Assembly: GCA_017549605.1 (NCBI GenBank)
Contig: JAFYUH010000103.1
Coordinates: forward strand, 1-39,457
Reading direction: 5' to 3'
Origin: Bacteroidales bacterium
Lineage (GTDB): Bacteria > Bacteroidota > Bacteroidia > Bacteroidales > F082
Length of the DNA: 39,457 nt
Position 1 is the stretch's first letter. Every line of letters starts with the position of its first letter. The position numbers and the translations under genes were made by a program. This document shows positions 545 through 39,173 of this stretch, one piece after another. Below the pieces are notes generated by a model. The model did not search any database and had not been told where the DNA came from. It saw only the letters and a program-made list of their open reading frames with translations.

Positions 545-642
545 CATAAAAAAACCTCAGAAATTCAGAACCTCAAAAACTCAAAAATTTTGAGATTCTG
601 AAGTTCTGAGATTCTGAGATTTTGAAATTTTGAATTTCTAAA
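545..642. terminator. Palindromic octamer array, probable bidirectional terminator
   Basis: Units of the TGARRTTY family stand on the right and their complements on the left. They form an imperfect hairpin, 556-586 against 588-618, with 26 of 31 positions paired. It sits between convergent genes (GNAT on plus, PEGA/FGE on minus), with A-runs on the left and T-rich sequence on the right, as expected for a terminator working in both directions. Termination itself is inferred. Confidence 0.6.
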
Positions 643-714
643 AAGTCACGTAGTGACGACAGTTCCCAGGCAGGCGGTGGAGTGCTCTATTTAGCCGAGG
701 CGGCAGGATGGACT

Positions 715-805
715 TTGGGCTTTGAACTCTGAACTTTGAACTCTGAACCTTGAGCTAAGAACCTCGGTGTCTCGGTGACTTGGCGTCTTGGCGTCTTGGC
801 GTCTT
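715..805. repeat. Heptamer array GAACTYT joined to octamer array CTYGGYGW
   Basis: Heptamers GAACTCT, GAACTTT, GAACTCT, GAACCTT run from 724 to 751 and decay to the right. Five octamers (two CTCGGTGW, three CTTGGCGT) follow from 763 to 802. The same octamer family reappears at 17691-17722. The stretch 643-714 holds nothing I recognise. Confidence 0.8.
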
Positions 806-812
806 AACAAGC

Positions 813-903
813 CGCACGTCCGTGCGACTCTACACGAAATTATGGTATAAAAAGACACTACTATTTCATAAACGAATCTCGTGTAGAGACATACGGACGT
901 ATG
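813..903. repeat. REP/MITE-like element with a hairpin at each tip
   Basis: Two perfect small hairpins, 813-826 (6-bp stem) and 890-903 (6-bp stem), sit at the ends. A 10-bp inverted repeat (828-837 with 879-888) lies inside them. The GTGTAGAGAC core is shared in part with the right end of a second inverted repeat at 39206-39282. No coding sense is visible. It lies just behind the 3' end of the PEGA/FGE gene. Confidence 0.6.
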
Positions 904-927
904 TCTAAAAACAAAAATGCGTTAGCG

Positions 928-3117: not shown

Positions 3118-3121
3118 AAAA

Positions 3122-3183
3122 AAATCAGAAACTCAAAACCTCAAAAGTTCTGAAATTCTGAGATTCTGAGATTCTGAGTTTTT
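3122..3183. repeat. TGARRTTY octamer array, partly palindromic
   Basis: Left-hand complement units (CTCAAAA-like) face right-hand TGAGATTC units. The array lies between the promoter of the PEGA/FGE gene and the stop of nhaA, so it sits directly downstream of nhaA and may terminate it. Confidence 0.65.
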
Positions 3184-3196: not shown

Positions 3197-4585
3197 TCAC
3201 TTCTTCTTCTTCGAGAAGGCCGTAATCAACACGCTTCCTAAGATTCCTGCTGATATTGATGCTGCCAAGATCGCTATCTTACCTAAGTTTCGCAAGTGCA
3301 TTGTCATCTCCGGTGCGAGTTCGCCGAATGAGAGCGTGTCGACGAAGATTGACATTGTGAAGCCGATACCGCCGAGGCATGCCACTGCGAAGAGCATCTT
3401 CCAAGAAGCGCCGTTTGGCATCTCACCGACTTTCAACTTGATCGCAATCCAGCTCGCGAGGGTGATGCCGACAGGCTTGCCTAACAGCAATCCGAGATAG
3501 ATGCCGAGTCCGACAGATCCTATCTCTGGCGAGTATTGGAAGAAGTTAAGATAACTCAAACCTGGAATCTCAACGCCAGCGTTAGCGATAGCGAAGATAG
3601 GCATGATTACGAAGTTGACCCATGGTGTCAACGCATGTTCCAGACGATAGCTCATGCCGACAGTGCCTCTAGCAACATTACTGATACTTCTGAGACATAT
3701 CTGCTGGTCGTGGTTTGGAGAGTCTGAGTCATCATGGAACTTGTCTATCATATTTCTATAATAGGTAGTCTTTCTGTCGTAATAAGAACGTGAATAACGA
3801 GCTTTCATTGGTATCATCATAGCCATAACAACGCCCGACATCGTAGCATGGATGCCAGCGTAGTAGAACAACATCCATATTGCTATCGCTGGGATGAGAT
3901 AATATATCATTCGTTTGACGCCTGCCTGGTTAAGCAAGAACACGAACAACAGAATCAATGCTGATACTATTAAAAGGTGGAAGTCTATAGCTCCTCCGTA
4001 GAAGAAGGCTACTACCAAAATAGCGCCTAAGTCGTCGGCAATGGCAAGCGCTGTCAAAAAGATCTTCAACGAGACAGGCACTCTGTTGCCGAGCATCGAC
4101 ATGATACCGATGGCAAAGGCGATGTCTGTTGCAGTAGGGATTCCCCATCCGCTGCCCGCTGCTGTTCCAGCATTGAAACATGTATAGATGAGAGCTGGCA
4201 CAAGCATACCGCCAACAGCGGCTATGACTGGCAACATGGCTTTCTTGACATTAGACAACTCTCCGCAGACAATCTCGCGCTTGATCTCAAGACCGACACA
4301 GAAAAAGAACACGACCATCAGGATATCGTTGATAAACTTCTCGACAGTCATCTCCTTAGGGAAGACCCATTCAAAATTATGACTCTTGATAGAAATAGCC
4401 AAAGTGGTCTCCAAAAAAGAATGATAGGCCTCTTTAGTAAAAGGTAGATTCGCCAACAACATGGCGACAACGACGCTAAACATCAAAAGGACGCCTGAGA
4501 TCCATGGCTTTGCCATAAGACGAGTACCGCCCAGACCAACAGCATGCTGGTATCTAACTCTGGTGTAATGTTGAAAAATTCTCAT
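3197..4585 (-). CDS. nhaA: Na+/H+ antiporter NhaA
   Basis: An inner-membrane antiporter that expels Na+ in exchange for protons. The family signature is intact: FFFCVGLEIKREIV near residue 93, the TATDIAFAIGIM helix with Asp154, and the ion-binding pair Asp184-Asp185 in ALAIADDLGAILV, equivalent to the paired Asp of the E. coli protein. At 462 residues it is longer than E. coli NhaA; the extra length is a hydrophilic loop of about 40 residues near 265-305 (KTTYYRNMIDKFHDDSDS region) and a longer N-terminus. It appears to be a single-gene unit: a -7 box stands 68 bases upstream and an array follows the stop. A later start at Met24 is possible. Confidence 0.93.
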   Translation of the reverse strand: MRIFQHYTRVRYQHAVGLGGTRLMAKPWISGVLLMFSVVVAMLLANLPFTKEAYHSFLETTLAISIKSHNFEWVFPKEMTVEKFINDILMVVFFFCVGLEIKREIVCGELSNVKKAMLPVIAAVGGMLVPALIYTCFNAGTAAGSGWGIPTATDIAFAIGIMSMLGNRVPVSLKIFLTALAIADDLGAILVVAFFYGGAIDFHLLIVSALILLFVFLLNQAGVKRMIYYLIPAIAIWMLFYYAGIHATMSGVVMAMMIPMKARYSRSYYDRKTTYYRNMIDKFHDDSDSPNHDQQICLRSISNVARGTVGMSYRLEHALTPWVNFVIMPIFAIANAGVEIPGLSYLNFFQYSPEIGSVGLGIYLGLLLGKPVGITLASWIAIKLKVGEMPNGASWKMLFAVACLGGIGFTMSIFVDTLSFGELAPEMTMHLRNLGKIAILAASISAGILGSVLITAFSKKKK

Positions 4586-4652
4586 AATCTTTTTAGATTA
4601 AAAGCACTTGTTTATAAATATTATTAAATAAATAATGTTTTAAAATAAGGCG

Positions 4653-4660
4653 CAAAAGTA
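4653..4660 (-). promoter_or_regulatory. -7 promoter element (TACTTTTG) of nhaA
   Basis: The complement TACTTTTG fits TAnnTTTG. It would give a leader of about 60 bases before the nhaA start. Confidence 0.5.
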
Positions 4661-4752
4661 GTAAATATTTTCACATATTTTCTAAATAAACGGCTCTATT
4701 TTCTCGTTAAAAAAAATCTACTTTTTGTTAAATATCATATCAAAAAATATTA

Positions 4753-4760
4753 TATCTTTG
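4753..4760 (+). promoter_or_regulatory. -7 promoter element (TATCTTTG) of tRNA-Ala
   Basis: TATCTTTG lies 14 bases before the tRNA 5' end. A TTTG at 4724-4727 could be the -33 element, but its spacing (25 bases) is wider than usual. The same promoter may also feed the threonine deaminase gene. Confidence 0.6.
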
Positions 4761-4774
4761 CACTTCGAACTGAT

Positions 4775-4848
4775 GGGGCATTAGCTCAGTTGGCTAGAGC
4801 GTTTGACTGGCAGTCAAGAGGTCATGAGTTCGATTCTCATATGCTCCA
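4775..4848 (+). tRNA. tRNA-Ala (anticodon GGC)
   Basis: A full cloverleaf can be drawn: 7-bp acceptor stem, D-stem GCTC/GAGC, anticodon stem with loop CTGGCAG, T-stem ATGAG/CTCAT with loop TTCGATT. The acceptor stem has a G3-U70 wobble pair, the identity element of alanine tRNAs, which agrees with anticodon GGC. CCA is not encoded. Length is 74 bases. Confidence 0.96.
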
Positions 4849-4858
4849 CAAATTGGCT

Positions 4859-4896
4859 AAAGCTAATGACTTAAACCAAGGTCGTTAGCTTTTTTT
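4859..4896 (+). terminator. Intrinsic terminator between tRNA-Ala and the threonine deaminase gene
   Basis: A 12-bp stem (4859-4870 with 4881-4892, one G-U pair) is followed by a run of T. It lies 10 bases behind the tRNA and 31 bases before the ilvA start. No -7 box is visible between the two, so it might act as an attenuator for ilvA. Confidence 0.75.
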
Positions 4897-4927
4897 ATGG
4901 CTATGAATTAAAAAAAATTAAATTGTC

Positions 4928-6145
4928 ATGGATTCAACATTAAAGTTTTCCGACATCGTTGCAGCACGTAACACATTGAAAGGCGTTGCTAAGCAAACAT
5001 CAATCATCCACTCTAAGTCATTTTCACAAATGTCTGACGCCAACATCTTCTTGAAGTTGGAAAACATGCAGACTACAGGTGCCTTCAAGTTAAGAGGCGC
5101 ATATAACAAATTAGCTAACTTATCAGACGAGGAAAAAGCAAGAGGCGTTGTGGCAGCATCTGCTGGCAACCACGCTCAAGGCGTTGCTTTCTCAGCAACA
5201 AAACTCGGCATGCAAAGCACCATCTTCATGCCTATCTTCACTCCTCCTTTGAAAGTGTTGGCAACAAAAGGTTACGGCGCTAACGTAGTGCTCGCCGGCG
5301 ACTCTTTCGACGACGCAGCTATCGCATCTCAAGAATATATCAAAGAACATAACGCTACATATATCCATCCTTTCAACGACCCATTGATCATCGCTGGTCA
5401 AGGCACTATAGGTTTGGAAATCATCGAGCAACAACCTGACGTTGACGCTGTCATCGTTCCTATCGGCGGTGGCGGTCTCGTAGCAGGTATCGCAATGGCG
5501 ATAAAAGAAATGAACCCTAAGATCAAGGTCATCGGCGTTAACGCTGCTGGCGCTGCTTCTATGGTCGCTTCTCGCGAAGCTAACAAAGTAGTCTCTTTAC
5601 CAAAAGTTTCTACTATCGCCGATGGTATCGCTGTTAAGACTCCAGGTTCTCTCACATTCGACATCATCCAAAAATACGTCGACGATATCGTAAGCGTTAC
5701 TGACACAGAAATAGCTCACACAGCTTACCTCTTGCTACAAAGAGCTAAGATTCTCGCTGAACCAGCAGGCGTAACTTCAATGGCAGCTGCTTTGTATAAC
5801 AAGGCTAACCTTAAAGGCATGAACGTAGTTCCTGTCATCAGCGGCGGTAACATCAACATGCAGATCCTTTCTCAAATCATCGAAAAAGGCATGGTGGAAG
5901 AAGGTCTCAGAGCAACAGTCAGAGTCATCATCCCTGACCAATCTGGTGAGCTTAGAAAGATACTCGCTATATTTGAAGGTCTTAAGGTCAACATCAACTC
6001 TATCAACCACGAACGTTCTTCAAGCAAGGTCGAAGTTGGTAAGACAATGATCACAATAAGCATGAATCTCCAAGACATGAACCAACTCAACACTATCGTA
6101 ACTATGATTCGCGAACAAGGAATCAGCTGCGAAGTAGTTTCTTGA
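4928..6145 (+). CDS. ilvA: Threonine ammonia-lyase (threonine deaminase) with C-terminal ACT domain
   Basis: A PLP enzyme that converts threonine to 2-oxobutyrate and ammonia, the first step towards isoleucine or a catabolic route to propionate. The Schiff-base lysine is Lys54 in TGAFKLRGAYNK. SAGNHAQG (from residue 78) and the phosphate-binding GGGGLVAG (from 180) are intact. An ACT regulatory domain occupies about residues 330-405 (RVIIPDQSGELRKILAIFEGL). At 405 residues with a single ACT domain it resembles the short TdcB/IlvA-like forms rather than the E. coli biosynthetic enzyme with two ACT-like units. The start is unambiguous, with an A-rich leader typical of the phylum. RidA, which removes the reactive enamine that such enzymes release, is encoded about 5 kb away at 10840-11217. 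Confidence 0.93.
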   Translation: MDSTLKFSDIVAARNTLKGVAKQTSIIHSKSFSQMSDANIFLKLENMQTTGAFKLRGAYNKLANLSDEEKARGVVAASAGNHAQGVAFSATKLGMQSTIFMPIFTPPLKVLATKGYGANVVLAGDSFDDAAIASQEYIKEHNATYIHPFNDPLIIAGQGTIGLEIIEQQPDVDAVIVPIGGGGLVAGIAMAIKEMNPKIKVIGVNAAGAASMVASREANKVVSLPKVSTIADGIAVKTPGSLTFDIIQKYVDDIVSVTDTEIAHTAYLLLQRAKILAEPAGVTSMAAALYNKANLKGMNVVPVISGGNINMQILSQIIEKGMVEEGLRATVRVIIPDQSGELRKILAIFEGLKVNINSINHERSSSKVEVGKTMITISMNLQDMNQLNTIVTMIREQGISCEVVS

Positions 6146-6217
6146 TAAGAATCTCAAAATCCCCAAAATTCAAAATCTCAAAATTCTGAACTTTTGAATT
6201 TCTGAGTTTCTGAGTTT
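6146..6217. terminator. Palindromic array between convergent genes
   Basis: Arms 6153-6180 and 6187-6214 pair at 21 of 28 positions around a 6-base loop. They are built from TGARTTTY-type units and their complements. The array follows ilvA (plus) and the MauE/thioredoxin-like gene (minus), fitting a two-way terminator. Confidence 0.6.
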
Positions 6218-7165
6218 CTATATAAAGGCATCATCAACATCTCGGAAGTCCCCGATTTTGATGATGTCTTTTTCTTTTAAAAATATAAATATCGGGAATC
6301 TGCCATAAGTGATTTCTATGGCTCTGTTAGGCATGATGTGCCAATATGAATAATCTTCCGTCATGGTCTCGTTACGGAAATCTTCTATACCTTCCGGACT
6401 TCCCCAGATAAAGATATCGACATTGTCTGTCGCAAGATCTTCATTCTTCATTATCAAAGAAAGTTTCTTAAGTCCTAGACGACAATACTTACAGCCGGAA
6501 CTCACAATCACAATAAGCTGATTTTCCTTCTCTTTAAAAGAAGAAATGCTGTCGAAGACAAGACCTTCTTCCGTAAAGTCTATCTTCACCACTTCGTCAA
6601 AAGATTTGTATAAGTCGACAGTGCTTATCTCTTTCTCAGTTGAATAAATCATCTTATAAATAGAATCAGGAGGAGAGATTATAAAGACTAAGAACGTTGA
6701 ACTAAGAACTAAGAGCTTTGAGCTCTGAGCCTTGAGCTTTGAGCTTGTTGTCCGTTGTCCTAACATCAAAAGCACTATCATCACCAGATTCTTGATAATC
6801 GATTCTAACGGACTTAATTCAACGAGTTCGCCGAAGCAATGGCAGTTGGCATCTTGACGGAAGATAGCGACATATATCAAAAACAAGGTAAATAATATCA
6901 ATGATATGAATGTAAGTCGACAGATGAGTTTATAATTAATTTTAAGGATAAGAAACAATCCCAGGATGAATTCGCCTATGATTATAATCCTCGACACGAA
7001 TGTCGTAAGAAGGAAACTAAAGATATCAAAGCTGTAGATATAAATCTCGAATTCATCTATAGACATTAATTTAAGAATGGCAGCTATGATAAACACGCTG
7101 CCAATTACTATATTGATGAACTTTGAACTTTGAACTCTGAACTCTGAACTTTGAACTCTGAACAT
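6218..7165 (-). CDS. MauE/DoxX-like membrane protein fused to a thioredoxin-like domain, with array-encoded segments
   Basis: The N-terminal half has about five hydrophobic helices (from residue 17) with a CHCFGE motif at 108-113, as in MauE-type proteins that pass reducing equivalents across the membrane. The C-terminal half is a thioredoxin-like domain, presumably outside, with a CKYC motif at 225-228. A role in disulfide or redox homeostasis is inferred. Two segments are encoded by repeats. Residues 1-16 (FRVQSS repeated) come from the GAACTYT array, and the ATG itself is created by a variant unit GAACATT. Residues about 136-157 (TTSSKLKAQSSKLLVLSS) come from the array at 6689-6763. A start nearer residue 17 would need a non-ATG codon. 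It is the last gene downstream of asmA on the minus strand. Confidence 0.7.
   Translation of the reverse strand: MFRVQSSEFRVQSSKFINIVIGSVFIIAAILKLMSIDEFEIYIYSFDIFSFLLTTFVSRIIIIGEFILGLFLILKINYKLICRLTFISLILFTLFLIYVAIFRQDANCHCFGELVELSPLESIIKNLVMIVLLMLGQRTTSSKLKAQSSKLLVLSSTFLVFIISPPDSIYKMIYSTEKEISTVDLYKSFDEVVKIDFTEEGLVFDSISSFKEKENQLIVIVSSGCKYCRLGLKKLSLIMKNEDLATDNVDIFIWGSPEGIEDFRNETMTEDYSYWHIMPNRAIEITYGRFPIFIFLKEKDIIKIGDFRDVDDAFI
6689..6763. repeat. Degenerate heptamer array inside a coding sequence
   Basis: Units of the GAACTYT and GAGCTYT type end in two GTCYGTT-type units. On the minus strand the array is read through without a stop and encodes the linker between the membrane and thioredoxin-like parts. 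Confidence 0.75.
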
Positions 7166-7207
7166 TGAACAAACTCCTAACTCCTAATTCCTAACTCCTA
7201 ACTCCTA
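7118..7207. repeat. GAACTYT array (seven units) followed by a TAAYTCC array
   Basis: Seven contiguous heptamers run 7118-7166: six GAACTYT and a final GAACATT. The start codon of the membrane/thioredoxin gene lies in the last unit. Heptamers of the complementary GGARTTA family follow from about 7172 to 7207, up to the asmA-like stop. Confidence 0.85.
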
Positions 7208-7208
7208 A

Positions 7209-10200
7209 CTATTTTAACGATTCATAAATCATATTCTTGAGTCTCAATGACTCTTGAATCAGATGAACATCTTCTTTACTTCCTTTAGGATTTTCAAGTC
7301 CAACATTTTTCTTTCCTCTCAATCGGAACTTCATGTCATCCAAGTCGCCTTGTATCATGATTCCAAGTCTTCTGAACGGCCATGGATTTGCCACTCCTAA
7401 TCTATAGTCGAAAGTCATGTTAAGATTATGACGGCCACCTACGACAGCCTGATATTTATCGACGGTGATAAGTGTTGGATATACGTCGATTTCGTTCTTG
7501 AAAGCTGTTATCTCAACATTGAGATTATCTATAGTGTTATGTTCCTTGTCCTTGAATCCGAGCAATCTGCCAAGTTTCTTATAGGTGGCGTTATCAAGTA
7601 TCACCAAGTCCTTTCCGTGTATCGCAGTCGCGCCCTTCAAGGTAGAGATTTTCATATCATAGTTAGATTTAAGATATGTCTCCACTGCGAAATGGAACTC
7701 GGCCTTTCCTGCAAAGGAACTGAGCATAGGAACAAGAGTGTCTATCTCTGGAACAAGTTTGATCATCTCTGCGATGTCAATCTCAAGGAGATGTAAGTCC
7801 AAACCGAGATAGAGATGGTTTCTGCGAGGCGACTTATACATCGCTGTGACTTCCATAGTAGCAGCATCTGAGGTGAAGCCCATTTCCTGCAATACCATCA
7901 AGCCGTCTTTAACGGTGAGCCCGCCGCCTATATTAGACAGGTTCATATCTCCTGCTATAGCCTTCTCGATATTTGTATTCAGTGTTATGTCGATGCCAAG
8001 AGGAACCATAAACGGATTGTCTTCCTTTACGACAGCATCTGTCACAACAGCCTCTTCTGCGACTAAAGTAGTGTCGCCCATGCCGCTGAAGAGTTCCATA
8101 ATCTGGTTCACGTCAGTATAATGTGATGTGAAATCAAGAGTTCCTTTCAAGAGCGCTTCCTTTTTCAAGAACTCGTCTACATTTGTAAACTTGCCTTGTA
8201 ATTCAAAGTCAGAATTGCCTAAGACGACGCTGCTGTTCTTGATATCTATTCCAGTTGTATCATATTGGAAGTCAATAGATGGAATATAAACAGGCACTGG
8301 GATATCGCTCATGGAGAAGACTGCCTTGTTCAACTGTATTCCTGCATGAGGATTCCATTGCAAGATCACATCTTCCTGACTGTCGTCGTAGTCTGCTGAA
8401 ACATTGAAGTCGAGTTTCTCTGTTGCGAAGCTCATCTCATCACCCATTTCAAACGACAAACTGTCGCCGTTATAAACTGCTATATATGAAGCGTCTTTGC
8501 CATTTTCTTTCATGAACATCGCGACACTTCCTTTTGGATTATTGGTGAAGAAAGTCATGTCATCCATAGAAGCATCTATTCTTGAAAGACTGTAATCGGC
8601 ATATACCGACATTGGAACGTTTTCGTCCAAGATATTAGAAACCTGCGCGTCTATGTTATAATCCTTAAGACTTGCCACTATCATTTCAGACACTTTCGCA
8701 TCTAAGTTTGTGCCGCTTATCTCAACATTTATCAGGCTGTTTGCTACAACTTCCGAAGTAGAGTTTGGCAAAGTGAATTTGACATTAAGCTCATCAGCAT
8801 TAACATTTATTGTATCGCAATAAACCATCTTCATGTCATTCCATTGCAAGTCGCCATTGACTTTAGCATCAGCGAAATCCATGTTAGTAAGCTGATAGTT
8901 ATTAACATTAACATTAGCATTTACATTCATTTTCACCTTACCGCCAGCAACTATTCCTTCAGGAAGGAAATCTTGAAGTTCGTCAAGGTCAGCATTAGCA
9001 TTAAGGTTTATATTGCAATACATCTTATCCATCATGTCTTTTACAGCACCTGAGAAAGAGAGTGATGATTTTGACATATTAGCCTTCAGATAATTGACAT
9101 AAACATCTGACTTATTGTTAAGGTCTAAGTCAGCTTTTATTGAAGTATTGAAATCTGTTATAGGGTAAGGCAGCATCTCTGGCATTGAGATCATACCTTT
9201 ATTATATTCTATTTCAGTATTCACGACAGGCATTGATGTTTCGTTATAGACACCTTTTATGTCAGCGGCGAGTTTAAGTTCACCTTTAACGTCTATGCCT
9301 TCGAGAAGTTCTTCGCGCATCGAAGCTGGTATCAGTCCGATGAGCTCTTCCATAATTATGGTATTGGTTTTTAAGTTCATGTCGACATTGATGTCATCGT
9401 TAGGCATTGAGACCTTACCGATCATATCGACGAAGATATTGTTGATGGCAAATTGTGAAGCGCCGAGTTCCACGTCCATAGTGCTCAATGTAGCATTGAC
9501 AGGCATTATCATTCTGACGTCAGCCTTGTTCACCAGTTGCTCATCATCCATGCTAAATGACAAGTCGTTGACAATCATTTCAGCATTACCTTTTATTACA
9601 TCATAGTTATTGATGTCGCCTTTGTATTTGAATTCGAAAGAATCGAACTCAGCGATTTGTCCTTCGCTTTCATAAAATAAAATAGAAGAAGATGCCTTGA
9701 CATCCGCATTGATATTATCTCCGCGCATCTCAGCATCTCCTTCTAATTTTAAGTCGTTAAGTTTCACAGCCATTGACAATGTGTCTGTCATCTGTTGATA
9801 TACGATATCACGTAAAGACATATTCACATTGCCGGCGATGTTTTCCCCTCTTACCTTAGCTTTCGCTGACATATTTAACCCATTAATGTCGGCGAACATA
9901 CCTTGAGTTTGGTCGGTGTAATTTACGGCAACATCATTGAGTTTCATTGAAACCAAGTCAATGCCGTAGACAAACTCCGAGTTTCCATCCTCGCTCACGG
10001 TATCTGCTTGTGATGGAGGGAAAATATCGATGTTTGTATTTCCAAGCTTGTCAGTAAAAAGATTTACATAACCGCCTTTCAATTTACATTCATCGATTAT
10101 AATCTGATCTCCCTTAAGGAACTTCTTGATATCCACTGAAACAACACATTCATTGATATAGGCGAGCGTGTCGGATGGATTCCCGTCCATCGGATTGACA

Positions 10201-12442: not shown

Positions 12443-12464
12443 AACATACTGTCAATAATACCCG

Positions 12465-12472
12465 CAAATTTA
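12465..12472 (-). promoter_or_regulatory. -7 promoter element (TAAATTTG) of the mltC unit
   Basis: The complement TAAATTTG fits TAnnTTTG and would give a leader of roughly 15 bases before mltC. It is the only such box found ahead of the genes from mltC to the MauE-like protein. Confidence 0.5.
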
Positions 12473-27526: not shown

Positions 27527-27593
27527 AAATTAGGGGAAATTTTCCTCTAATTTCCCCTAATTTCCTCTATTTTGATTTATTTCCTTCTATAAG
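27527..27593. repeat. 67-bp direct repeat, copy 1, covering the 3' end of fic and its hairpin
   Basis: Matches 28925-28991 with one mismatch in 67 bp. It contains the last codons of fic and, 3 bases after the stop, a perfect 15-bp stem (27527-27541 with 27549-27563) that would act as a terminator for fic. Confidence 0.9.
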
Positions 27594-28883
27594 GCTCTCA
27601 AATTCATCTGATTTCACATATCCTAAAGCTCTTTTGTTAATATTTGTTATTTTTAAATATCCCATTTCAACCAACTCCTGCAAATCAGTTCGAGCCGTTC
27701 TTGTTGTAATACCAAATTGACTTGCTAACTCTTTAGGCGTTATTATCATATGCTTATTTTCCATAATTACTTTAAATACATATCTTTGTCGATCATTTGT
27801 ATTTAACACACCAATAAATCTATGAATATTTTGTTGCTCATCAATTTTTCTTTGAAGATATTTCTTTAATTCTTCAAACGCTTTTTTCATAACATTCAAA
27901 TGATACTGAATAAAATAAGACAAATCATTATCATCATTTTCAGTATATAAAAAAGCTTTTTCATAAGATTTCTTATTAGTATAGATAATTCTGGATATCG
28001 AAAGATACTCTGTCAACCAATACCCTTTTTTTATCATATACCAATAGAACAACGATCTTGCCGTTCTTCCATTTCCATCAACAAAAGGGTGAATATACGC
28101 CAACATAAAATGTATAATTATACCTTTAATTATAGGATGTATAAAATTGTCATTATTATCGTTATTGGCGAACTCACACAAATCTCCGACCATATCAATA
28201 ATTTCATTATATGAAGGCGGAGTATGCGCAACAGAACCAGTTATACTATCCACAACATATATATCATCATTTTTTCTGAACACGCCTTCATCATCAGAAT
28301 TCTCTAATGTGCTTTTTGATATAGAACGATGTATATCAAGTAAGTCTTCTATTGAAAAATCCTTATTAAAATCATTCGATATTTTCGTGATTGTATCGTA
28401 GTTATTTACAATCATTTGCTGACTTTTATTGATAGGCTTCAATTGTTTACGAAGCATATCTTTCGCGATACGTCTTGTAGTTGAAGCACCTTCCATCTGG
28501 CTCGATGCAATAGCCTCTTCCATAATAGAACTTATCAGATAATAACTCTTATCAGATGCTGGTATTATACTTTTTGTACCAAGATTACCACCCAAATTCA
28601 TATCAAAAGCATGTAACAATGCCAACATATTTTTTGTTATGGTAAAATGGAATACATATTTTCCAAAACGTACAGTTTGAGAATTTAATTGACGTTGGAT
28701 TTTAACAGCATGCCATAAAGTATGCTTATCAACATTTTCAGGAGCAGTATATTTAACTTTATCCCAATACAGATACTCTCTATCTATTTTCTGAAAAACT
28801 TCCTGCAAAGTACTGTTTATCAGCATTTGTATTGCTTCAATCCTATTTTTTTCCTCTATTTTTGGTACAGGTTCTATTTTCAT
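27567..28883 (-). CDS. Fic family protein with autoinhibitory helix and C-terminal winged-helix
   Basis: The start is at 28883 (MKIEPVPKIEEKN); the upstream TTG at 28907 overlaps the promoter. The 438-residue product has the Fic core motif HPFVDGNGRTAR at about 265-276, with the catalytic His and the ATP-binding GNGR. The inhibitory motif SSQMEG at about 127-132 lies N-terminal to it, as in class II Fic proteins where the Glu blocks ATP. A winged-helix DNA-binding domain follows at about 385-425 (TPKELASQFGITTRTARTDLQEL). Such proteins transfer AMP to target hydroxyls; the target here is unknown. The gene is visibly more AT-rich than its neighbours and is flanked by 67-bp direct repeats, suggesting acquisition or rearrangement. 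Confidence 0.92.
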   Translation of the reverse strand: MKIEPVPKIEEKNRIEAIQMLINSTLQEVFQKIDREYLYWDKVKYTAPENVDKHTLWHAVKIQRQLNSQTVRFGKYVFHFTITKNMLALLHAFDMNLGGNLGTKSIIPASDKSYYLISSIMEEAIASSQMEGASTTRRIAKDMLRKQLKPINKSQQMIVNNYDTITKISNDFNKDFSIEDLLDIHRSISKSTLENSDDEGVFRKNDDIYVVDSITGSVAHTPPSYNEIIDMVGDLCEFANNDNNDNFIHPIIKGIIIHFMLAYIHPFVDGNGRTARSLFYWYMIKKGYWLTEYLSISRIIYTNKKSYEKAFLYTENDDNDLSYFIQYHLNVMKKAFEELKKYLQRKIDEQQNIHRFIGVLNTNDRQRYVFKVIMENKHMIITPKELASQFGITTRTARTDLQELVEMGYLKITNINKRALGYVKSDEFESLIEGNKSK

Positions 28884-28904
28884 ATAAGCACTATTAAGTC
28901 GTGA

Positions 28905-28912
28905 CAAATATA
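28905..28912 (-). promoter_or_regulatory. -7 promoter element (TATATTTG) of fic
   Basis: The complement TATATTTG lies 21 bases before the ATG at 28883 and overlaps the possible TTG start at 28907, favouring the shorter reading. Confidence 0.6.
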
Positions 28913-28924: not shown

Positions 28925-28991
28925 AAATTAGGGGAAATTTTCCTCTAATTTCCCCTAATTTCCTCTATTTTGATTTATTTCCTTATATAAG
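28925..28991. repeat. 67-bp direct repeat, copy 2, upstream of fic
   Basis: Same sequence as copy 1 with one C/A change, which turns the fic tail codons into a stop (LI*GNKSK). It holds the same hairpin (28925-28939 with 28947-28961). It is thus a remnant of a fic 3' end lying in front of the fic promoter. Confidence 0.9.
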
Positions 28992-29150: not shown

Positions 29151-29236
29151 CTCCTCAGTTCCTCAAACCCTTAGTTCCTCAATTCCTCATACCCTTAGTT
29201 CCTCAATTCCTCATACCCTCAATTCCTAACTCCTAA
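29151..29236. repeat. Mixed GGAAYTRA, ATACCCTY and GGARTTA arrays downstream of mntP
   Basis: Complement-oriented units of three families run directly up to the mntP stop codon. Confidence 0.8.
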
Positions 29237-29824
29237 TTAAAAAACAAGGTGTTCCAACAAAATCTTGACTCCTAAGATTATGAGGATCGCGCCTCCTGTC
29301 ATCTCAGCGGCCTTGCTGTAGCGTGAACCGAAGATGTTTCCTATCCTCACGCCCACAAAAGAAAACAAGAATGTAGTGATGCCGATGACCAATACAGAGA
29401 ACCAGATATTCACTTTAAGGAATGCAAATGTAACACCCACTGCCAAAGCATCGATGCTTGTAGCTATCGCCAACATCAACATTGTCTTAAATCCAGTATA
29501 ACCACAAGCACACTCAACTGTTGTCTGTTGTCCGTTGTCTGTTGACTCTTCTTCAGAAAACGCCTCGCGTATCATATTGACACCTATGACAAGAAGCAGT
29601 CCGAATGCGATCCAGTGGTCGAAAGAAGTGATGAAATGTTCAAACTGCGCTCCGAGGAAATATCCTATCAAGGGCATCAAAGCCTGGAATCCGCCGAACC
29701 ATAATCCGCATAACAATGCAGTCTTAAAAGAGAATTTCTTCGTTGCAAGGCCCTTGCATATCGAAACAGAAAAAGCGTCCATTGAAAGAGCGACGCTTAT
29801 TGCGAGTAAAGAGATTATATCCAT
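29237..29824 (-). CDS. mntP: Manganese exporter MntP
   Basis: A six-helix inner-membrane protein of 195 residues of the MntP (DUF204) family, which exports Mn2+. Both pseudo-symmetric halves show the helix motif with Asp: SVALSMDAFSVSICKG in the first and IATSIDALAVGVTFA in the fourth helix. The second half keeps GVRIGNIFGSRYSKAAEMTGGAILI. The loop between the halves (residues about 92-105, ESTDNGQQTTVE) is encoded by a GTCYGTT array at 29517-29550. No yybP-ykoY-type manganese riboswitch is apparent; upstream lie a palindromic array and the tRNA-Pro terminator. Confidence 0.93.
   Translation of the reverse strand: MDIISLLAISVALSMDAFSVSICKGLATKKFSFKTALLCGLWFGGFQALMPLIGYFLGAQFEHFITSFDHWIAFGLLLVIGVNMIREAFSEEESTDNGQQTTVECACGYTGFKTMLMLAIATSIDALAVGVTFAFLKVNIWFSVLVIGITTFLFSFVGVRIGNIFGSRYSKAAEMTGGAILIILGVKILLEHLVF
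29517..29550. repeat. GTCYGTT heptamer array inside mntP
   Basis: Four to five units encode the cytoplasmic loop. Twenty-eight bases are identical to the array in mccA but are translated in a different frame. Confidence 0.9.
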
Positions 29825-29825
29825 T

Positions 29826-29916
29826 TTTGAGTTTATGAGTTTATAAGTCTATGAGTCTATGAGTCTATGAGTGCTTATCGACTTATTGACTCATAGACTC
29901 ATAGACTTATTGACTC
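29826..29916. repeat. GAGTYTAT octamer array forming a long hairpin upstream of mntP
   Basis: The arms 29845-29871 and 29890-29916 pair at 24 of 27 positions around an 18-base loop. It lies in what would be the 5' leader of mntP, behind the tRNA-Pro terminator. Confidence 0.8.
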
Positions 29917-29941: not shown

Positions 29942-30015
29942 TCGGGATGACAAGATTCGAACTTGCGGCCTCTTCGTCCCGAACGAAGCGCGCTACCGGA
30001 CTGCGCTACATCCCG
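29942..30015 (-). tRNA. tRNA-Pro (anticodon CGG)
   Basis: The minus strand folds as a cloverleaf: acceptor CGGGATG/CATCCCG, D-stem GCGC/GCGC, anticodon stem CTTCG/CGAAG with loop TTCGGGA (anticodon CGG), T-stem GCAAG/CTTGT with loop TTCGAAT. It has 74 bases and no encoded CCA. No promoter box is visible upstream, so it may be processed from a transcript that starts at or before the aldolase gene. Confidence 0.96.
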
Positions 30016-30106
30016 ATTTAAGGATTTGAGGATTTGAGGACTTGAGGAACTAAGGGTAAACTCATACTTCCTCAGTTCCTCATACCCTCATACCCTTAGA
30101 TCCTAA
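30016..30106. repeat. Mixed octamer arrays between the aldolase gene and tRNA-Pro
   Basis: AGGATTTG, AGGATTTG, AGGACTTG units on the left are followed by TTCCTCAG and ATACCCTY units on the right, up to the aldolase stop. Confidence 0.8.
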
Positions 30107-31138: not shown

Positions 31139-31216
31139 TTAAGTCAACGGACAACAGACTACAGCCAACAGACCTGGTGTATACAATCTTTAGCCTTTAG
31201 CCATTAGCCAAAAGCC
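31139..31216. repeat. Mixed arrays between the antiporter and aldolase genes
   Basis: Degenerate CAACRGA heptamers (about 31144-31171) are followed by TTAGCC-type units (about 31189-31213). Confidence 0.7.
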
Positions 31217-32791: not shown

Positions 32792-32826
32792 TGAATTAGG
32801 AGTTAGGAATTAGGAGTTAGGAGTTG
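32792..32826. repeat. GGARTTA heptamer array
   Basis: GGAGTTA, GGAATTA, GGAGTTA, GGAGTT in direct succession from 32799, between the antiporter promoter and the terminator of the T9SS gene. Confidence 0.85.
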
Positions 32827-32835
32827 AGTGTTGGG

Positions 32836-32874
32836 AATAAAAAAGGAGGTTACTTGAAAAAGTAGCCTCCTTTT
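32836..32874 (-). terminator. Intrinsic terminator of the T9SS adhesin gene
   Basis: A 13-bp stem (32841-32853 with 32862-32874, one G-U pair) and an 8-base loop, with a T-run downstream on the minus strand. A short TGARATTY array (32880-32908) lies between it and the stop codon. Confidence 0.8.
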
Positions 32875-32910
32875 GATTTTTGAGATTCTGAATCTTTGAA
32901 ATTTTGAATT

Positions 32911-35900
32911 TTATCTAACAACGTTGACGCGTTTCACTGCAACGCCATTGTCTGTTGCGATACGTACCATATAGATACCAGTTTGGTATTGTGACATATC
33001 GATGATTTGGCTGTCGCCGCTTACCTCTTGGTCATAGACGACTTGACCTAATGTGTTAGCGATTGTGATACGTCTCATTGCTTCAACATTGATGTTCAAG
33101 TTGCCGTTTGTTGGGTTAGGATAGATCATCAATCCGTTGATGCTGTTTTCTTCAACAGCTGTAACTTCAACCACGACATAGTCTAATGTTTCGTCATTAT
33201 AAGTCTTTGCTGGTTCTGATTCGCATTCTATACCATCTTCTTCATAAACAGCTGTAACTTGATAGTAGTAAGTGCCTTTTTCTACTTCATCGAAATAAGA
33301 CTTAGCAGTTGTTGTTGCTACTACCTCCATATTTTCTAAAGAAGCGCCACGATAGATATTATAGTTCTTAAATGCAAGGCCTCTTGTTGAAGGATCTATT
33401 GATGTTGCCACACCTCTTTCGCTTGTAACGAAAGCACGGATCATGAATGAACCTTCGAGGTTGTAGCCTATTATATCCATCCAGTTAACGCCGTCACCTG
33501 AGAACCAGCGAGCATTTGAATCGCCACAGTCTTTTGACAATGTTGCTGGATATGCCAAGCCTTTGTCAGTCTTAATAACAACCCAGATGTTTTCTTCACC
33601 GCTTACAGGTAGTGGAGCCAACAATTCTATTTCAGCCCATGTGCCTGCGCCTGATCCTACATAAGATTGTGTATGTACCAAAATTTCAGGAGCGTTATCG
33701 CCGCCATAGTAAATATGGACTGTAGCTTCATTAGTGCCGCCGCCTTCTAAGAAATCATAGAACATGACCTTAGTGATATTTGTACCAGCATAAGTTTCAA
33801 GTTTTTCAACAGGGAACTTAACGCCATAGTAGAATGACTCTATACCACCGACAGCTTCTACCATATAACCATCGTCATAGTGCAACCATTCTGATGTTGG
33901 ACCAGCATATGGATAATACAACATTGTTCCGAATCTTCCGTCAGGATATGATGTTGCATAAGCATTTAATGCCTTAGGTGCTTGGCAAGCAAGGTCTGCC
34001 ATTATTGTTTGAGGGCATGACATTGCATAGTATGTCAAGTCTTTTTCACCGCCATAAACCACTCTTAATGAATATTCAGCATTTGCTGTTGTCTTTTCAT
34101 CTACGAATGTTTCGCCTTGTGCAAGTTTAGAGATGAGCTGTCCGTCACGATAGACCATCACGCCGAGAGTCTCTGCTGCTGGAATTTCAGGAGCTGCGTC
34201 ACCAACGCAAGCGCGGATCATCCAGGTAAATGCAGGCATTGAAACATACATATTGTCTAACCATCCATAGCCATCATAATAGAGCCAACGTCCGTTAGCA
34301 TCGCCTTGATCCAAGCATCCTGCTGCTGGCTGTTTGCCGTTTCCGTTAGAGAAAACAACCCATACGTTTTTGTTTCCGCTGAGTTCAACAGCTGATGTCA
34401 ATGCTACTTCTTGGAAAGAGAAAGAGCCTGTCATTGTATATTTCTGAGAATGCAACAATGTTTCAGGAGCGATGCTGCCGCCTTCATAGATAAAGAGTTC
34501 GCCTTCGTATGCTTCGCAGTCATATAAAGCGACTTTCAAAAGAGATTGACCTGCATATTGTGCAACGCTTGATGCTGGGAACATAACGCCCCACTTGAAT
34601 TGTTCGAAGTTTGTTCCGTCGTATGTAAGACCAATACGTTCGTTGTATTCGCCATTGTCATATTTCAGCCAATTTTCTGCTCTTGTTGATTTAGCTGTTG
34701 TTGCTGGCAATGTCCAGTTGATTGTTGTTACGCCATTTGAATATTCTGCTGTCAAATCTGAAAGGCCTTCATAATTGTCACAAGCGACTTTTGTCCATGT
34801 GTATGATGTTTCTTCGCCATTGCCCATAGTGTAGACAGGAACGACTGTTGTTGTATATGTCTTTCCATCGACGAGGTCTTCATGTTGATAATAAGGTTTT
34901 GACAAGCCTTCAGCAACCAACTCGCCATCCAAGTAAACATTATATGACTGTAAAGCTCTGCTGCTTCTTTCGTCTGTTTCCAAAGAGATGTCGTCAACAT
35001 TGATATAGAATTGGTCTGTACAGTTGAAGTGACGCAATGCGATATATATTTCCTGACCTGCGTAATCTCTTAAGTCGACGACTTTTTCATACCATGCGCC
35101 TTGATCTTTAGTGTCGCGGTTGCCTCTTACGCCTGACTTAGCTGTCAATGTTTCTTCCCAGATTGTCGTGAATTCTGCTGGGTCAGTATTGCCGCCGAAT
35201 GATACAGCAACGCCGTAATGGTCGTTTGGAGCTGAAGCGTCTTGAGCGCAAACCCAGAATCTTAATTTTGATGTCTCATCGATTCTGTATTTCTTATCTG
35301 TAACGAGATAGTTGTCTGGTGTAAGAATCAAGCCATAGATCCATGACATTGATGTAACGCAAGCGATACTTGAGTTATGACCTGAACCTGGAACCATGAT
35401 TTCAATTGAGTTTTGCCATGTATAGTTGTCGTTGTCAGCGTCGATTGTAGTCCAGCCATTCAATGTTCCGTCTTCAAAGTCGAATGAGAATTCATCGCCA
35501 GCGCCTACGCTGTTGCCTTCCCACATAGCCCAGCCTGTTGGTGAAACATATAAATCTTTAACAGGAGCAGTATCTTCTGTGAGCTTGCAATTTATTTCTT
35601 TAGCTTCCCAGATTTCAACAGTCTTGCCGTTGTATTCCGAATTGAAGCCTTCTTTCAAGATACTTACTGTATAAACACCTTTACGGAAGTTTTTGAATGT
35701 AAATGTATCACTCAAACCCAATGCAATTGTGTAGCTGTATTCGCTTTCCACTTCATTAACAAGGCTGATTGATGTACCAGCAACAGGATCTTTTGAGTCT
35801 ATTTCAACGGTGACAGTGACTTCTGTCAACATATCTTTAGAAAGTGTGTTTGACCAAGCCACTTCTGATTCTGCAGCTGCATCACCAAGAACTGAAACGC

Positions 35901-37211: not shown

Positions 37212-38111
37212 ATGATTGCTCCGAAGCCATTATCCAAAGGGTCAAAAATCGCCATAGTATCGCCTGCAAGATTCATTTCAGAAGAGGATTTAGCATATTC
37301 TTTACAATATCTCCGCGACAGAGGTTTCGTCCCTGTCTATGACGAACGTCTCTTTGCCGTCAGCGGTCAGTTTGCCGGCGATGACGAACTGCGCGCGAGT
37401 GTCTTGCAATCGTATCTCGACAGCCCCGACATCGACGCCATCTTATGTGCGAGAGGCGGCTACGGAACAGTACGCATCATCGACAGACTCAGCTTCGAGA
37501 AATTTGCCCTTAAACCTAAATGGATAATCGGATACAGCGACATCACCGTCTTGCATGCCAAGATGCAGAGCCTAGGCTACGAGAGCATACACGCCACCAT
37601 GCCCATCAACTTCCGCGACAACACTGAAGATTCGCTGAATTCTCTGATAGACGCTCTGACATCACAGCCTTTACATTACGAAATAAAAAACTCGCCATTG
37701 AACATACAAGGCGAGGCGGAAGCAGAGATAGTAGGCGGCAACATTTCTGTATTATACAGCATGTTAGGCTCAGCCACATTCCCTGACACTAAAGGAAAAA
37801 TCTTATTCTTGGAAGACCTTGACGAATATCTTTATCATATCGACAGAATGATGTTCGCCTTGGACAGAGCTGGAAAACTTGACGGCATCAAAGGCCTTGT
37901 CGTCGGAGGATTGACAAAGATGCACGACAACAACATTCCTTTCGGAAAGACAGCTGAAGAGATAATACTGGAACGCGTCGCCGACAAAGGAATACCTGTA
38001 TGCTTCAACTTCCCTGCAGGTCATATCGACGACAACAGAGCCATCATCTTCGGAAGAAACTACAAGATGTCAGTAAATCAAACCGCCCAACTCCTAACTC
38101 CTAACTCCTAA
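37212..38111 (+). CDS. LD-carboxypeptidase / S66 peptidase
   Basis: A cytoplasmic serine peptidase of 299 residues without a signal peptide, of the LdcA/MccF family. It removes the terminal D-Ala from tetrapeptides during peptidoglycan recycling, or detoxifies microcin-like compounds. The Ser-Glu-His triad is visible: Ser109 in WIIGYSDIT, Glu201 in ILFLEDLDE, His271 in NFPAGHIDDN. The last residues (QLLTPNS and the stop) are encoded by the TAAYTCC array at 38091-38125, so the natural end of the protein may have been replaced by array sequence. It converges on the glutaminyl-cyclase-like gene with only 3 bases between the stops. Confidence 0.92.
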   Translation: MIAPKPLSKGSKIAIVSPARFISEEDLAYSLQYLRDRGFVPVYDERLFAVSGQFAGDDELRASVLQSYLDSPDIDAILCARGGYGTVRIIDRLSFEKFALKPKWIIGYSDITVLHAKMQSLGYESIHATMPINFRDNTEDSLNSLIDALTSQPLHYEIKNSPLNIQGEAEAEIVGGNISVLYSMLGSATFPDTKGKILFLEDLDEYLYHIDRMMFALDRAGKLDGIKGLVVGGLTKMHDNNIPFGKTAEEIILERVADKGIPVCFNFPAGHIDDNRAIIFGRNYKMSVNQTAQLLTPNS

Positions 38112-38125
38112 CTCCTAATTCCTAT
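38091..38125. repeat. CTCCTAA heptamer array that supplies two stop codons
   Basis: Four CTCCTAA units and a TTCCTAT unit. The LD-carboxypeptidase stop (38109-38111) and, on the other strand, the stop of the convergent gene (38115-38117) both lie inside it. Confidence 0.9.
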
Positions 38126-39104
38126 AAATGACATTAACAACAACATCGCCGACCATTCCTAAAGTCTTAGGGTCGATTTGTTCGATATTATCCTTGACAG
38201 TATGCCAATAAGGATAGAATGAGCTTTCGCTGTTATTTTCAAGATGTATGATGTCGATCATCGGGATTCTTGCGTGGACGTTCACATAAATATGGTCGTC
38301 GTTGATAGGATGGCCTATTTCGTTTGTGAAATAATCCGAATAGCCAATCTCACGAGCCATTCTCCATATATCGTTACTCAAGGCTGGAGCGAACTGCTGT
38401 GAATAATATTCTTTAGGGAATTTAGGATTAGGGCCGCCGACCATGTCGAGCAATATTCCGAAATAAGCGCGGTAGTTATATATGTGCGGATTCTTTGCCC
38501 AGTATTGAGAACCGAGAGCCCAGTCGTTGTTTGTCATGAGGTTGAGATAATACGGAGCTCCGTAATCTTCAAGGTCGAAGAGGATGATGTCGACGCCAAT
38601 GTTCAAAGGGTTTTCCTTAATCACTCTTGCTATTTCCATAAGCACTCCCACTCCACTTGCGCCGTCGTTGGCACCGTCGATAGGAGTGTTCCAGTTGTTT
38701 TCGTCAGGGTCGTGGTCGGCGAAAGGACGCGAATCCCAGTGAGCCGCGAGCAGGATTCTCTTCTTCGCCTCTGGATTGAAAGCAGCGATGATGTTCTTGC
38801 CGTCGATGCCGTTGCCATTATAAAGACGTGTCCTGAAATTCTGCACATAGACGGTGTCTGCCTTGTCGCTGAAGAAGTCGACGAACCAGTCAGCACATTG
38901 AGCATGAGCCTCGCTGCCTGGCACACGAGGTCCGAAATCTAACTGTTTCTTAACGTAATTATATGCCGAGTCGGCATTGAAATCTGGAATCACGACCTGC
39001 TTTGCCTGAGGTGCAGGCTTTGCAGCAGGTTTGGAATTTTGTTTGTTATCGCAAGAAACTATTGATAATAATACCAATGATATGAGAGTGATTTTTTTAA
39101 GCAT
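38115..39104 (-). CDS. M28-fold lipoprotein, probable glutaminyl cyclase (type II)
   Basis: The start at 39104 (MLKKITLISL) is preferred over 39116 because the -7 box at 39126-39133 leaves no room for the latter. Numbered from 39116, a lipobox IVSC gives Cys22 and a Pro/Ala/Lys-rich tether of 20 residues follows. The M28-type core has LLAAHWDSRPFADHD (His126), GANDGASGVGVLMEIAR (Asp151), LFDLEDYGAP (Glu183) and GHPINDDHIYVN (His275). This pattern resembles the M28-fold glutaminyl cyclases of Porphyromonas and relatives, which convert N-terminal Gln of exported proteins to pyroglutamate. A true aminopeptidase is the alternative. Five exported proteins in this window carry Gln at +1. Confidence 0.75.
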   Translation of the reverse strand: MLKKITLISLVLLSIVSCDNKQNSKPAAKPAPQAKQVVIPDFNADSAYNYVKKQLDFGPRVPGSEAHAQCADWFVDFFSDKADTVYVQNFRTRLYNGNGIDGKNIIAAFNPEAKKRILLAAHWDSRPFADHDPDENNWNTPIDGANDGASGVGVLMEIARVIKENPLNIGVDIILFDLEDYGAPYYLNLMTNNDWALGSQYWAKNPHIYNYRAYFGILLDMVGGPNPKFPKEYYSQQFAPALSNDIWRMAREIGYSDYFTNEIGHPINDDHIYVNVHARIPMIDIIHLENNSESSFYPYWHTVKDNIEQIDPKTLGMVGDVVVNVIYRN

Positions 39105-39125
39105 AGAATTCTTCATTTGTCAATG

Positions 39126-39133
39126 CAAAAATA
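39126..39133 (-). promoter_or_regulatory. -7 promoter element (TATTTTTG) of the glutaminyl-cyclase-like gene
   Basis: The complement TATTTTTG matches TAnnTTTG and lies 21 bases before the preferred start at 39104. Confidence 0.5.
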
Positions 39134-39140
39134 ACATTTT

Positions 39141-39173
39141 AATTAGGAATTAGGAGTTAGGAATTAGGAATTA
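39141..39173. repeat. GGARTTA heptamer array
   Basis: GGAATTA, GGAGTTA, GGAATTA, GGAATTA in direct succession from 39146. Confidence 0.85.

Follow-up and report, generated by a model that had tools for sequence, protein, structure and literature searches.

Tandem arrays of 7- and 8-bp words form a genome-wide, multi-family population in a Bacteroidales genome

How do the same 7- and 8-bp words, repeated in tandem, come to stand at many unrelated places in one bacterial genome? The question is raised by a 39,457-nucleotide contig (JAFYUH010000103.1; this whole stretch is called the window) of a Bacteroidales bacterium of the F082 lineage (GCA_017549605.1). The window is contig C85 of the source genome, G000 (2.53 Mb in 205 contigs, 84.75% complete), which was compared with relatives, one genome per species, among them G027 (91% complete), G009, G035 and G034. 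The original prediction, made from the letters of the window, was that at least nine families of such arrays occur in it. A pattern scan and Tandem Repeats Finder both recover the nine motifs at or very near their predicted places. Heptamer matches begin at 7178, 17648, 32799, 38095 and 39146 for GGARTTA, at 23216, 25673, 29523 and 31146 for GTCYGTT, at 724 and 7118 for GAACTYT and at 25607 for GTCAACR, and octamer matches at 763 and 17691 for CTYGGYGW, over 12539-12738 (25 units) for GGAAYTRA, at 12755 for ATACCCTY, at 591, 3151, 19247 and 19501 for TGARRTTY and at 29829 for GAGTYTAT. The motifs stand but their number does not: when GACYGTT is reverse-complemented and rotated it gives GTCAACR, which makes GTCYGTT and GTCAACR a single family seen from the two strands, and the window therefore holds eight families.

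Arrays were counted in two samples of G000. The first comprises 534,527 non-N bases (the window and 40 further stretches) and the second 908,035 bases (the first sample and 20 more stretches); the 20 added stretches and 5 of the first 40 come from contigs already known to bear arrays, the remaining ones were mostly picked at regular contig numbers, and short contigs masked as N contributed zero bases. The results showed 130 arrays of period 7 and 80 of period 8 in the first sample against none of either in an order-2 Markov control, which excludes a chance origin, and at most 11 arrays for each other period from 4 to 17 (the multiples 14 and 16 aside). The second sample holds 286 arrays of period 7 and 159 of period 8, with 2-19 each for periods 5, 6 and 9-11, and the window itself carries 13 of period 7, 15 of period 8, one of period 6, none of period 9 and two of period 10. 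This amounts to one array per 2 to 2.5 kb or so, a density best taken from the 534,527-base sample (about one per 2.5 kb) because the added stretches had been pre-selected for arrays. Clustering, with arrays outside the distance thresholds labelled as other or omitted from the family counts, yielded 21 heptamer and 18 octamer families, 13 and 10 of which have at least four arrays. Families of this size, built from the same arrays, take in 250 of the 286 heptamer and 136 of the 159 octamer arrays (unit-shuffle null, 44 and 7). Among the heptamers, GTCYGTT/GTCAACR, GGARTTA, GARCTYT and YAATKCA are the most frequent, and among the octamers CTYGGYGW, GGAAYTRA, TGARNTTY and ATACCCTY. Three GGARTTA units in a row occur 97 times in G000, 49 on one strand and 48 on the other, and never in the backward control; the 17 backward-control matches of GTCYGTT arise because reversed GTCTGTT is a rotation of itself. 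These data confirm that a genome-wide, multi-family system of 7- and 8-mer arrays is real in G000 and that, as predicted, the same families return at distant loci.

The units of a family vary in a restricted way. Changes had been described as almost all transitions; a majority of them are, 158 of 215 unit-to-unit changes in the window, but over 534 kb the share is 328 of 582 for period 7 (56%) and 392 of 640 for period 8 (61%), so that the stronger wording does not hold. Variation is confined to a few fixed two-state positions, most of them transitions: position 4 of GGARTTA is A in 0.51 and G in 0.48 of units, with at least 0.92 of one base at each remaining position. Two-state transversion positions are nevertheless common, as in CTYGGYGW (position 8, A/T), GWCYGTT (position 2, T/A) and YAATKCA (position 5, T/G). 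An alternating unit order, considered as the signature of a 14-bp copying unit, is seen in GGARTTA (z 2.75 in G000, 2.25 in G027) and CTTGGTGA (z 2.09 in G000) and is not general, as nine other G000 families stay below z 1.2.

One explanation of such families is independent slippage at each locus, whereby 7- and 8-base slips escape mismatch repair and some words expand readily, so that the same families re-arise without copying. That only periods 7 and 8 are abundant is in line with it, but two-state positions beside a near-fixed remainder are not. Lost mismatch repair is not the cause, because MutS is present in G000 (the MutS_I profile matches in 38 of 40 genus genomes, including G000, G027 and G009); in addition to the usual MutS, G000 has a second MutS_I-domain match at C193:10426-10710. 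The ends of the arrays bear on the same point. Family patterns were extended outward until the first mismatch, with random cuts and real flanks as the null for ends; paralogous copies were removed in the length test and retained in the end-phase test and in the G027 length test. One phase is preferred at the left end of GGARTTA (37 of 47; chi-square 117.5 against random cuts), at the right end of GTCYGTT (61 of 87; chi-square 153.4) and ATACCCTY (12 of 14), and at both ends of CTYGGYGW (left 25 of 41; right 33 of 41, chi-square 108.0, paralogs included) and YAATKCA (left 15 and right 16 of 23).

As for length, GWCYGTT measures 31-33 bp in 53 of 80 non-paralogous copies (35 of 50 coding, 18 of 30 noncoding), and GTCYGTT has the same 31-33 bp peak in G027 (18 of 24). 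GWCYGTT is a discrete element that prefers certain bases at its two ends and is close to 32 bp long (four units and four further bases), and this locked length speaks against free slippage, which is not expected to produce it. The preference for about four units, clear in GWCYGTT, is partial in GGARTTA (31-33 bp in 17 of 39 noncoding and 0 of 4 coding arrays, with extra peaks near 39 and 25), in YAATKCA (8 of 22 at 31-33 bp, 11 of 22 at 32-34 bp) and in CTYGGYGW (13 of 34 at 35-37 bp); TCARYTT has 5 of 16 arrays at 31-33 bp. Some other families thus lean to four units plus four bases (36 bp for octamers), and others appear as freely expanded arrays. The predicted fixed length is accordingly right for the period, and for the whole array strikingly so in GWCYGTT and partly in GGARTTA, YAATKCA, TCARYTT and CTYGGYGW, but wrong for GARCTYT, GGAAYTRA and ATACCCTY.

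Recurrence in related genomes, which had been put forward as a check, was found. Three GGARTTA units in a row occur in 11 of 60 genomes searched: the own genome, 10 of 35 congeners and none of 24 that represent other families of the order; the GTCYGTT triplet occurs in 3 and that of CTYGGYGW in 2 of 40 genus genomes (own included). Words to which slippage is universally drawn should be commoner than this in relatives, GGARTTA triplets being missing in 25 of 35 and GTCYGTT triplets in 37 of 40. Where arrays do occur, their words are largely shared: 86 of 123 heptamers from G027 stretches, picked on contigs bearing GGARTTA or GTCYGTT, fall within the G000 vocabulary (null 21; largest of 50 shuffles 35), as do 19 of 28 heptamers (null 5) and 9 of 22 octamers (null 0.8) of G009.

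The sites, on the other hand, are mostly not shared. Among 28 syntenic gaps of G000 and G027 (contig C6 included), arrays occur in 19 in G000, in 9 in G027 and in 8 in both, and by eye only one of these eight has the same family at the site and one more a related octamer. Contig C6 of G027, syntenic with window positions 3234-27355, has no period-7 or period-8 array over threshold in 25 kb; degenerate GTTGAC words lie ahead of its carboxyltransferase gene. In this part of the window, G027 has no array corresponding to the GARCTYT array at 7117-7171 (+ strand, in the start region of ORF (open reading frame) 6218-7165), the GGARTTA array at 7172-7210 (- strand, past an AsmA-family ORF), the GGAAYTRA array at 12539-12741 (+ strand, 25 full units) or the CTYGGYGW array at 17691-17724 (+ strand, ahead of the OstA start). 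G009 keeps the latter in nearly the same unit order with a different unit number, an inherited array, and in another gap 36 bp of octamer array are identical in G000 and G009, as far as compared. Past the MlaD stop, at 17643-17681 (+ strand), G000 has a full GGARTTA array where G009 has a lone TTAGGAGT. At 25596-25710, G027 has a short site and G035 inverted arrays of another heptamer. In the one family-sharing gap (L184/L349), the neighbouring array has had its family swapped in place: TAATTCA words in G000 and TAATTAGG words in G027 stand between matching flanks, and both end in AATT. Congeners thus share words more than sites.

The same words also occur outside the order. GGARTTA triplets are found in at least 117 stretches of a species collection, from cyanobacteria to Clostridia, Bacteroidales, Neisseriaceae and others, some of whose draft contigs may be contaminants, and GTCYGTT triplets in only 25 stretches of a viral collection; carriage by phages, also considered, was set aside. 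At the listed GGARTTA loci, 35 of 95 other heptamer arrays outside cyanobacteria belong to the G000 vocabulary (null 11) and 21 of 114 in cyanobacteria (null 12), an overlap that slippage would account for, as it would for the local changes of unit number and the lone TTAGGAGT in G009. A universal vocabulary was considered and is weak, the excess in other phyla being modest and octamers scarce there (24 period-8 against 376 period-7 arrays at the 117 listed loci, which were chosen for GGARTTA). Taken together with the preferred ends and the locked length of some families, these data make independent slippage a possible but distinctly less probable account. Two observations favour the predicted copying between loci, namely that words are shared where sites mostly are not, and that elements have preferred ends; the accompanying exclusion of slippage fails, since unit number does change locally.

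Arrays had been said to fill intergenic gaps. Many are intergenic, yet they are not confined to gaps: 115 of 445 lie in predicted ORFs (counts that include some false ORFs because a simple caller with a 100-residue minimum was used), including 45 of 70 GTCYGTT arrays. Two overlooked copies in the window are among them, one in the linker of a biotin carboxylase gene (23211-23239, + strand; read on the - strand as GQQTTDNRQQS) and one in a loop of the MntP gene (29518-29550, + strand; read on the - strand as ESTDNGQQTT). Further host genes encode PrmC, RibD, a YjeF-type enzyme, a solute-binding protein and a family-9 glycosyltransferase, and the commonest encoded peptide is of the type QQTTDN[RG]QQ. 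In three stop-free families, 64 coding copies are in sense and 14 in antisense orientation, and 12 of the 14 start no more than 25 residues into the called ORF. Literature searches with the peptide strings of coding arrays returned no matching paper.

The biotin carboxylase turn that bears the repeat is 29 residues long in 22 of 30 genomes (own included) and longer in the remaining eight, with 39 residues in both G000 and G027 and 31-43 in the other six; the loop is an insertion of 10 residues relative to G009, and its repeat, near-perfect in G000, is no longer clean in G027. In another species (L317, G034), the same linker carries a different short repeat of GAAAGTK words. In a comparison with 1.24 Mb of relatives, a spanning relative was available for 29 of the 64 sense-strand arrays that these three families have in ORFs of 150 aa or more, and 9 of the 29 showed a net insertion of at least 4 residues. 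In one solute-binding protein, 29 bases of array have 90% identity in G000 and G027, the ungapped flanks have 58% and 78%, and what differs within the array is A/G changes at the two-state position; this single case is suggestive of homogenisation. An array is likewise kept in a second protein family common to both genomes. Loops of type IX secretion system (T9SS) sorting domains in paralogs bear three of the labelled families. Locus L046 (G000 C75, 1-20000) encodes paralogous proteins of secreted type in tandem; each has a CTYGGYGW array in a sorting-domain-like loop, and GGAAYTRA/ATACCCTY arrays lie between several of the genes.

Copies inside genes, preferred ends and preferred length would also be expected of a dedicated trans-acting enzyme, a transposase or a telomerase-like polymerase, for which a length of four units plus four and two-state positions would record template and alignment steps; two-state transition positions could then reflect wobble pairing with the template, but the transversion positions do not fit wobble. 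The prediction that no transposase or reverse transcriptase accompanies the arrays agrees with a Pfam scan of 26 window ORFs, which found none evident. These ORFs have largely housekeeping and surface functions and include a T9SS sorting domain and a cleaved-adhesin domain, which would indicate Bacteroidota; outside the scan lies a contig-end partial ORF (39362-39457) whose start, MRKKHDYEALLKYMRMLEEG, recalls the first ORF of an insertion-sequence transposase, for which we presume it a candidate. Genome-wide, one RVT_1 match (45 bits, over the cut-off) occurs in G000. RVT_1 matches in 22 of 40 genus genomes, with one in G009 and none in G027; Y1_Tnp matches in 28 of the 40, with one in G009 and none in G000, G027 or G035, absences that are not proof because the G000 and G027 assemblies are 85% and 91% complete. 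Spreading by REP-associated tyrosine transposases, as for repetitive extragenic palindromic (REP) sequences, is not supported, Y1_Tnp being missing from G000 and G027 among the 40 genomes scanned, and spreading by a reverse transcriptase (of a group II intron, retron or diversity-generating retroelement) finds no clear support, with no RVT_1 match in the 91% complete G027 but untyped single matches in G000 and G009. The one clear empty site, in biotin carboxylase, shows by eye no evident target-site duplication. We regard a dedicated enzyme as unlikely.

Some arrays are predicted to form terminator-like hairpins. Of twelve array regions in the window, nine outscore their shuffled versions in folding (z -3.4 to -12.2, a score of the hairpin and not of the U-run that follows it in an intrinsic terminator) and three do not; a separate hairpin accounts for the result of one of the nine, 32793-32912. 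The arms of TGARNTTY lie at gene ends: inverted pairs stand past the stop of a GNAT gene (553-642, z -5.5), past an antiporter stop codon (3121-3181, z -4.7) and between convergent genes (6146-6219, z -3.4; 19228-19303, z -3.5), and a further array at 19498-19539 (+ strand) lies past an acetate kinase-like gene. The block 3197-6145 between two of these hairpins, one end of which is the 6146-6219 pair, is inverted in G027 (one case). The GTCAACR array at 25607-25635 and the 32-bp GTCYGTT element at 25673-25704, both annotated on the + strand, are the two arms of another hairpin (z -5.4), the GAGTYTAT array with its inverted copy at 29824-29915 forms a long one beside tRNA-Pro (z -12.2), and octamer arrays in inverted orientation at 30015-30104 form one more (z -6.7). 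Outside TGARNTTY, hairpin pairing is not the rule: genome-wide, among 109 pairs of adjacent arrays, those of one family inverted within 60 bp number only 12, another 5 are direct, and the remaining 92 combine different families or periods. Divergent gaps make up 22% of gap length but contain 31 of the 284 arrays classed as intergenic; 46 arrays close to stretch ends went unclassified. Arrays directly upstream of TTATCTTTGC, which we take to be a promoter motif, were noticed, and a promoter role is a bare idea.

Another view is that a regulator binding DNA or RNA recognises the arrays, which has been proposed for the TAACTGA repeats of Beggiatoaceae (PMC4679880) and for octamer/heptamer pairs of Geobacter (PMC2700814). 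It would suit this view that some families contain a 4-base core repeated at nearly constant spacing and in nearly constant number, and that some families cluster by stop codons (15 of 24 stop sides of TGAGATTC within 15 bp). However, both orientations of GGARTTA are equally frequent, words are many and different, sites are mostly unconserved, and the copies in ORFs described above do not fit; we consider it improbable. An artefact of assembly or binning has next to no likelihood: the assembly is a draft of 205 contigs and some relatives' arrays lie at contig ends (for example G009 C66:3-23 and C77:6-26; C39:2-25), but arrays also stand in intact genes, at orthologous sites in other assemblies and in an order shared with G009.

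In our view there is about an even chance that the arrays are very small dispersed repeats, copied between loci by template switching or conversion together with local slippage, and mostly neutral or parasitic. On this account, the genome would hold a large population of tiny dispersed repeats, tandem runs drawn from a small lineage-specific vocabulary of 7- and 8-mers. We infer that, during replication or repair, a strand end with a few matching bases (AATT, GTCT) may anneal in another array, copy it and return, by template switching or short conversion, and that slippage would then add or remove whole units locally. Selection would purge copies that create stops within genes or fall in divergent gaps, which are rich in promoters, and may retain some inverted pairs as terminator-like hairpins; the elements would persist because most landing sites are neutral. 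The arrays are best read as neutral or parasitic DNA with some co-option, rather than as a dedicated regulatory system.

Several results weigh against this copying account. Only 2 of 21 G027 octamers belong to the G000 vocabulary (null maximum 3), which is not beyond chance, and the choice of stretches inflates the heptamer overlap of G027. The 8 co-occupied gaps among 28 are close to the density expectation (19 x 9 / 28, about 6), for which reason hot spots for sites were also rejected. Lengths are broad, with no preferred-length peak, in GARCTYT (1 of 29), GGAAYTRA (1 of 20) and ATACCCTY (2 of 12), and matching ends are equally expected from slippage off a short direct repeat. Among the coding arrays with a spanning relative, 20 of 29 show no net insertion: the array is shared, the relative's loop is similar or longer, or a distant paralog was compared. 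The in-place swap was seen only once, as was the conserved coding array, one genome per species provides no near-identical strain pair showing an insertion event, and local copying alone leaves GGARTTA in distant phyla unexplained.

The remaining arrays of the window belong largely to the same families: GARCTYT at 709-753 (+ strand) and, within a MauE-like ORF, at 6692-6746 (+ strand); CTYGGYGW at 763-805 (+ strand, 5 full units); ATACCCTY at 12752-12841 (+ strand, 9 full units), immediately past the LptD stop; mixed GGAAYTRA/ATACCCTY arrays at 27406-27483 and 29152-29221 (both - strand); a short period-7 array, TTTAGCCATTAGCC, at 31188-31216 (+ strand); and GGARTTA at 32793-32833 (+ strand), at 38086-38124 (- strand, across the 3' ends of two convergent ORFs) and at 39141-39173 (+ strand). 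Gene neighbours change at the largest array site (12443-12840), as G009 has other genes past LptD (by eye an OmpH-like and a secreted-type protein). A direct repeat of 61 identical bases in 62 (27532-27593 and 28930-28991) brackets a Fic/DOC gene at 27567-28907, as if the gene had come in as a unit or the flank had been duplicated. A longer dispersed repeat at 19310-19480 (GGGATTGGAGCGGCATCC ... AGCGGAAAGCCCGACGGCGATAGCCGGAACGCC), with an inner run of GGGAATT-like words, is present many times over in G027 and G009. Beside arrays of G000 and G027 lie recurring short repeats whose ends are GTAGAGACG / CGTCTCTAC and which have the appearance of small palindromic repeats (39180-39300 of the window; L185, 16674-17030).

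How do these arrays relate to known repeats? Short tandemly repeated repetitive (STRR) heptanucleotides are dispersed in the intergenic DNA of cyanobacteria; to our knowledge, octamers and in-frame gene copies have not been described for them. Rickettsia palindromic elements are small, lie in frame inside protein genes and have no known mobilising enzyme, but they are longer palindromes, and the gene copies in G000 are tandem 7- or 8-bp repeats and do not belong with them. At phase-variation contingency loci, unit number varies within a population and switches a surface gene; the genes seen here, with one genome per species, are largely housekeeping ones. The TAACTGA repeats of Beggiatoaceae, Cyanobacteria and some Bacteroidetes (MacGregor 2015, PMC4679880) are copies of one word, in sets of 2-6 in the main genome and for the most part directly ahead of start codons, and related heptamers are rarely repeated. 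They resemble the G000 arrays as dispersed intergenic heptamers, sporadic in distant phyla including Bacteroidetes, with no evident transfer mechanism and with other heptamers nearby in some Bacteroidetes; G000 differs in its roughly two dozen 7- and 8-bp families, both orientations, many ORF copies and preferred length and ends, and two TAACTGA in a row have 0 matches in its 908-kb sample. The GGGAATC and GGGGA(C/T)T heptamers of Xanthomonas and Nostoc (Rehm 2015, PMC4692102), as presented in the available part of that paper, are likewise genome-wide and scarce between divergent genes, with a clear four-unit preference and, in Nostoc, a C/T position. In G000 nearly all words are free of G-runs and the preference is seen nonetheless, and there are many ORF copies and site turnover; GGG on either strand occurs in only two of the 21 + 18 consensuses, both octamers (ACCCTCAT and AATGAGGG), so that they do not belong to a G-quadruplex class with a G-run per unit. 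Geobacter metallireducens has heptanucleotide elements of four units (49 copies) and octanucleotide repeats in pairs, for which a role as regulatory RNA or as sites bound by a regulator has been proposed (PMC2700814); octamer pairs on opposite strands and several classes in one genome are shared with G000, whereas the available part of that report gives fewer copies and classes and holds no turnover analysis.

Since a given heptamer is found in tandem at many loci that have no relation to one another, G000 joins the class of the MacGregor, Rehm and Geobacter repeats; the class is already known in several bacteria, and G000 is a rich, multi-family variant. The literature searched did not yield its number of co-existing words with an octamer half, its preference of ends and length without G-runs, its turnover with shared words or its in-place swap. 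A bolder view, which we hold only tentatively and think rather less probable than not by a wide measure, is that all these are length-locked tandem-word elements of about 32 or 36 bp (five 4-base cores, 7 or 8 apart), rewritten across bacterial genomes and proteins by an undescribed copying process with a lineage-specific, changing vocabulary, and that the four-unit heptamers of Geobacter, Xanthomonas and Nostoc are members. The arrays of G000 would argue against G-quadruplex formation as the general cause of the four-unit preference, and the spread of heptamer repeats would become testable, because the copies have defined ends, a defined length and comparable empty or swapped sites. If the copying account is true, a bacterial genome could be filled by repeats too small for the transposon label, which spread and swap words in place. 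A word of 7 or 8 bases is indifferent to frame, a stop-free sense copy giving the same repeating peptide in any frame, and such repeats would thereby add stop-free peptide segments to enzymes and to the sorting domains of secreted proteins.

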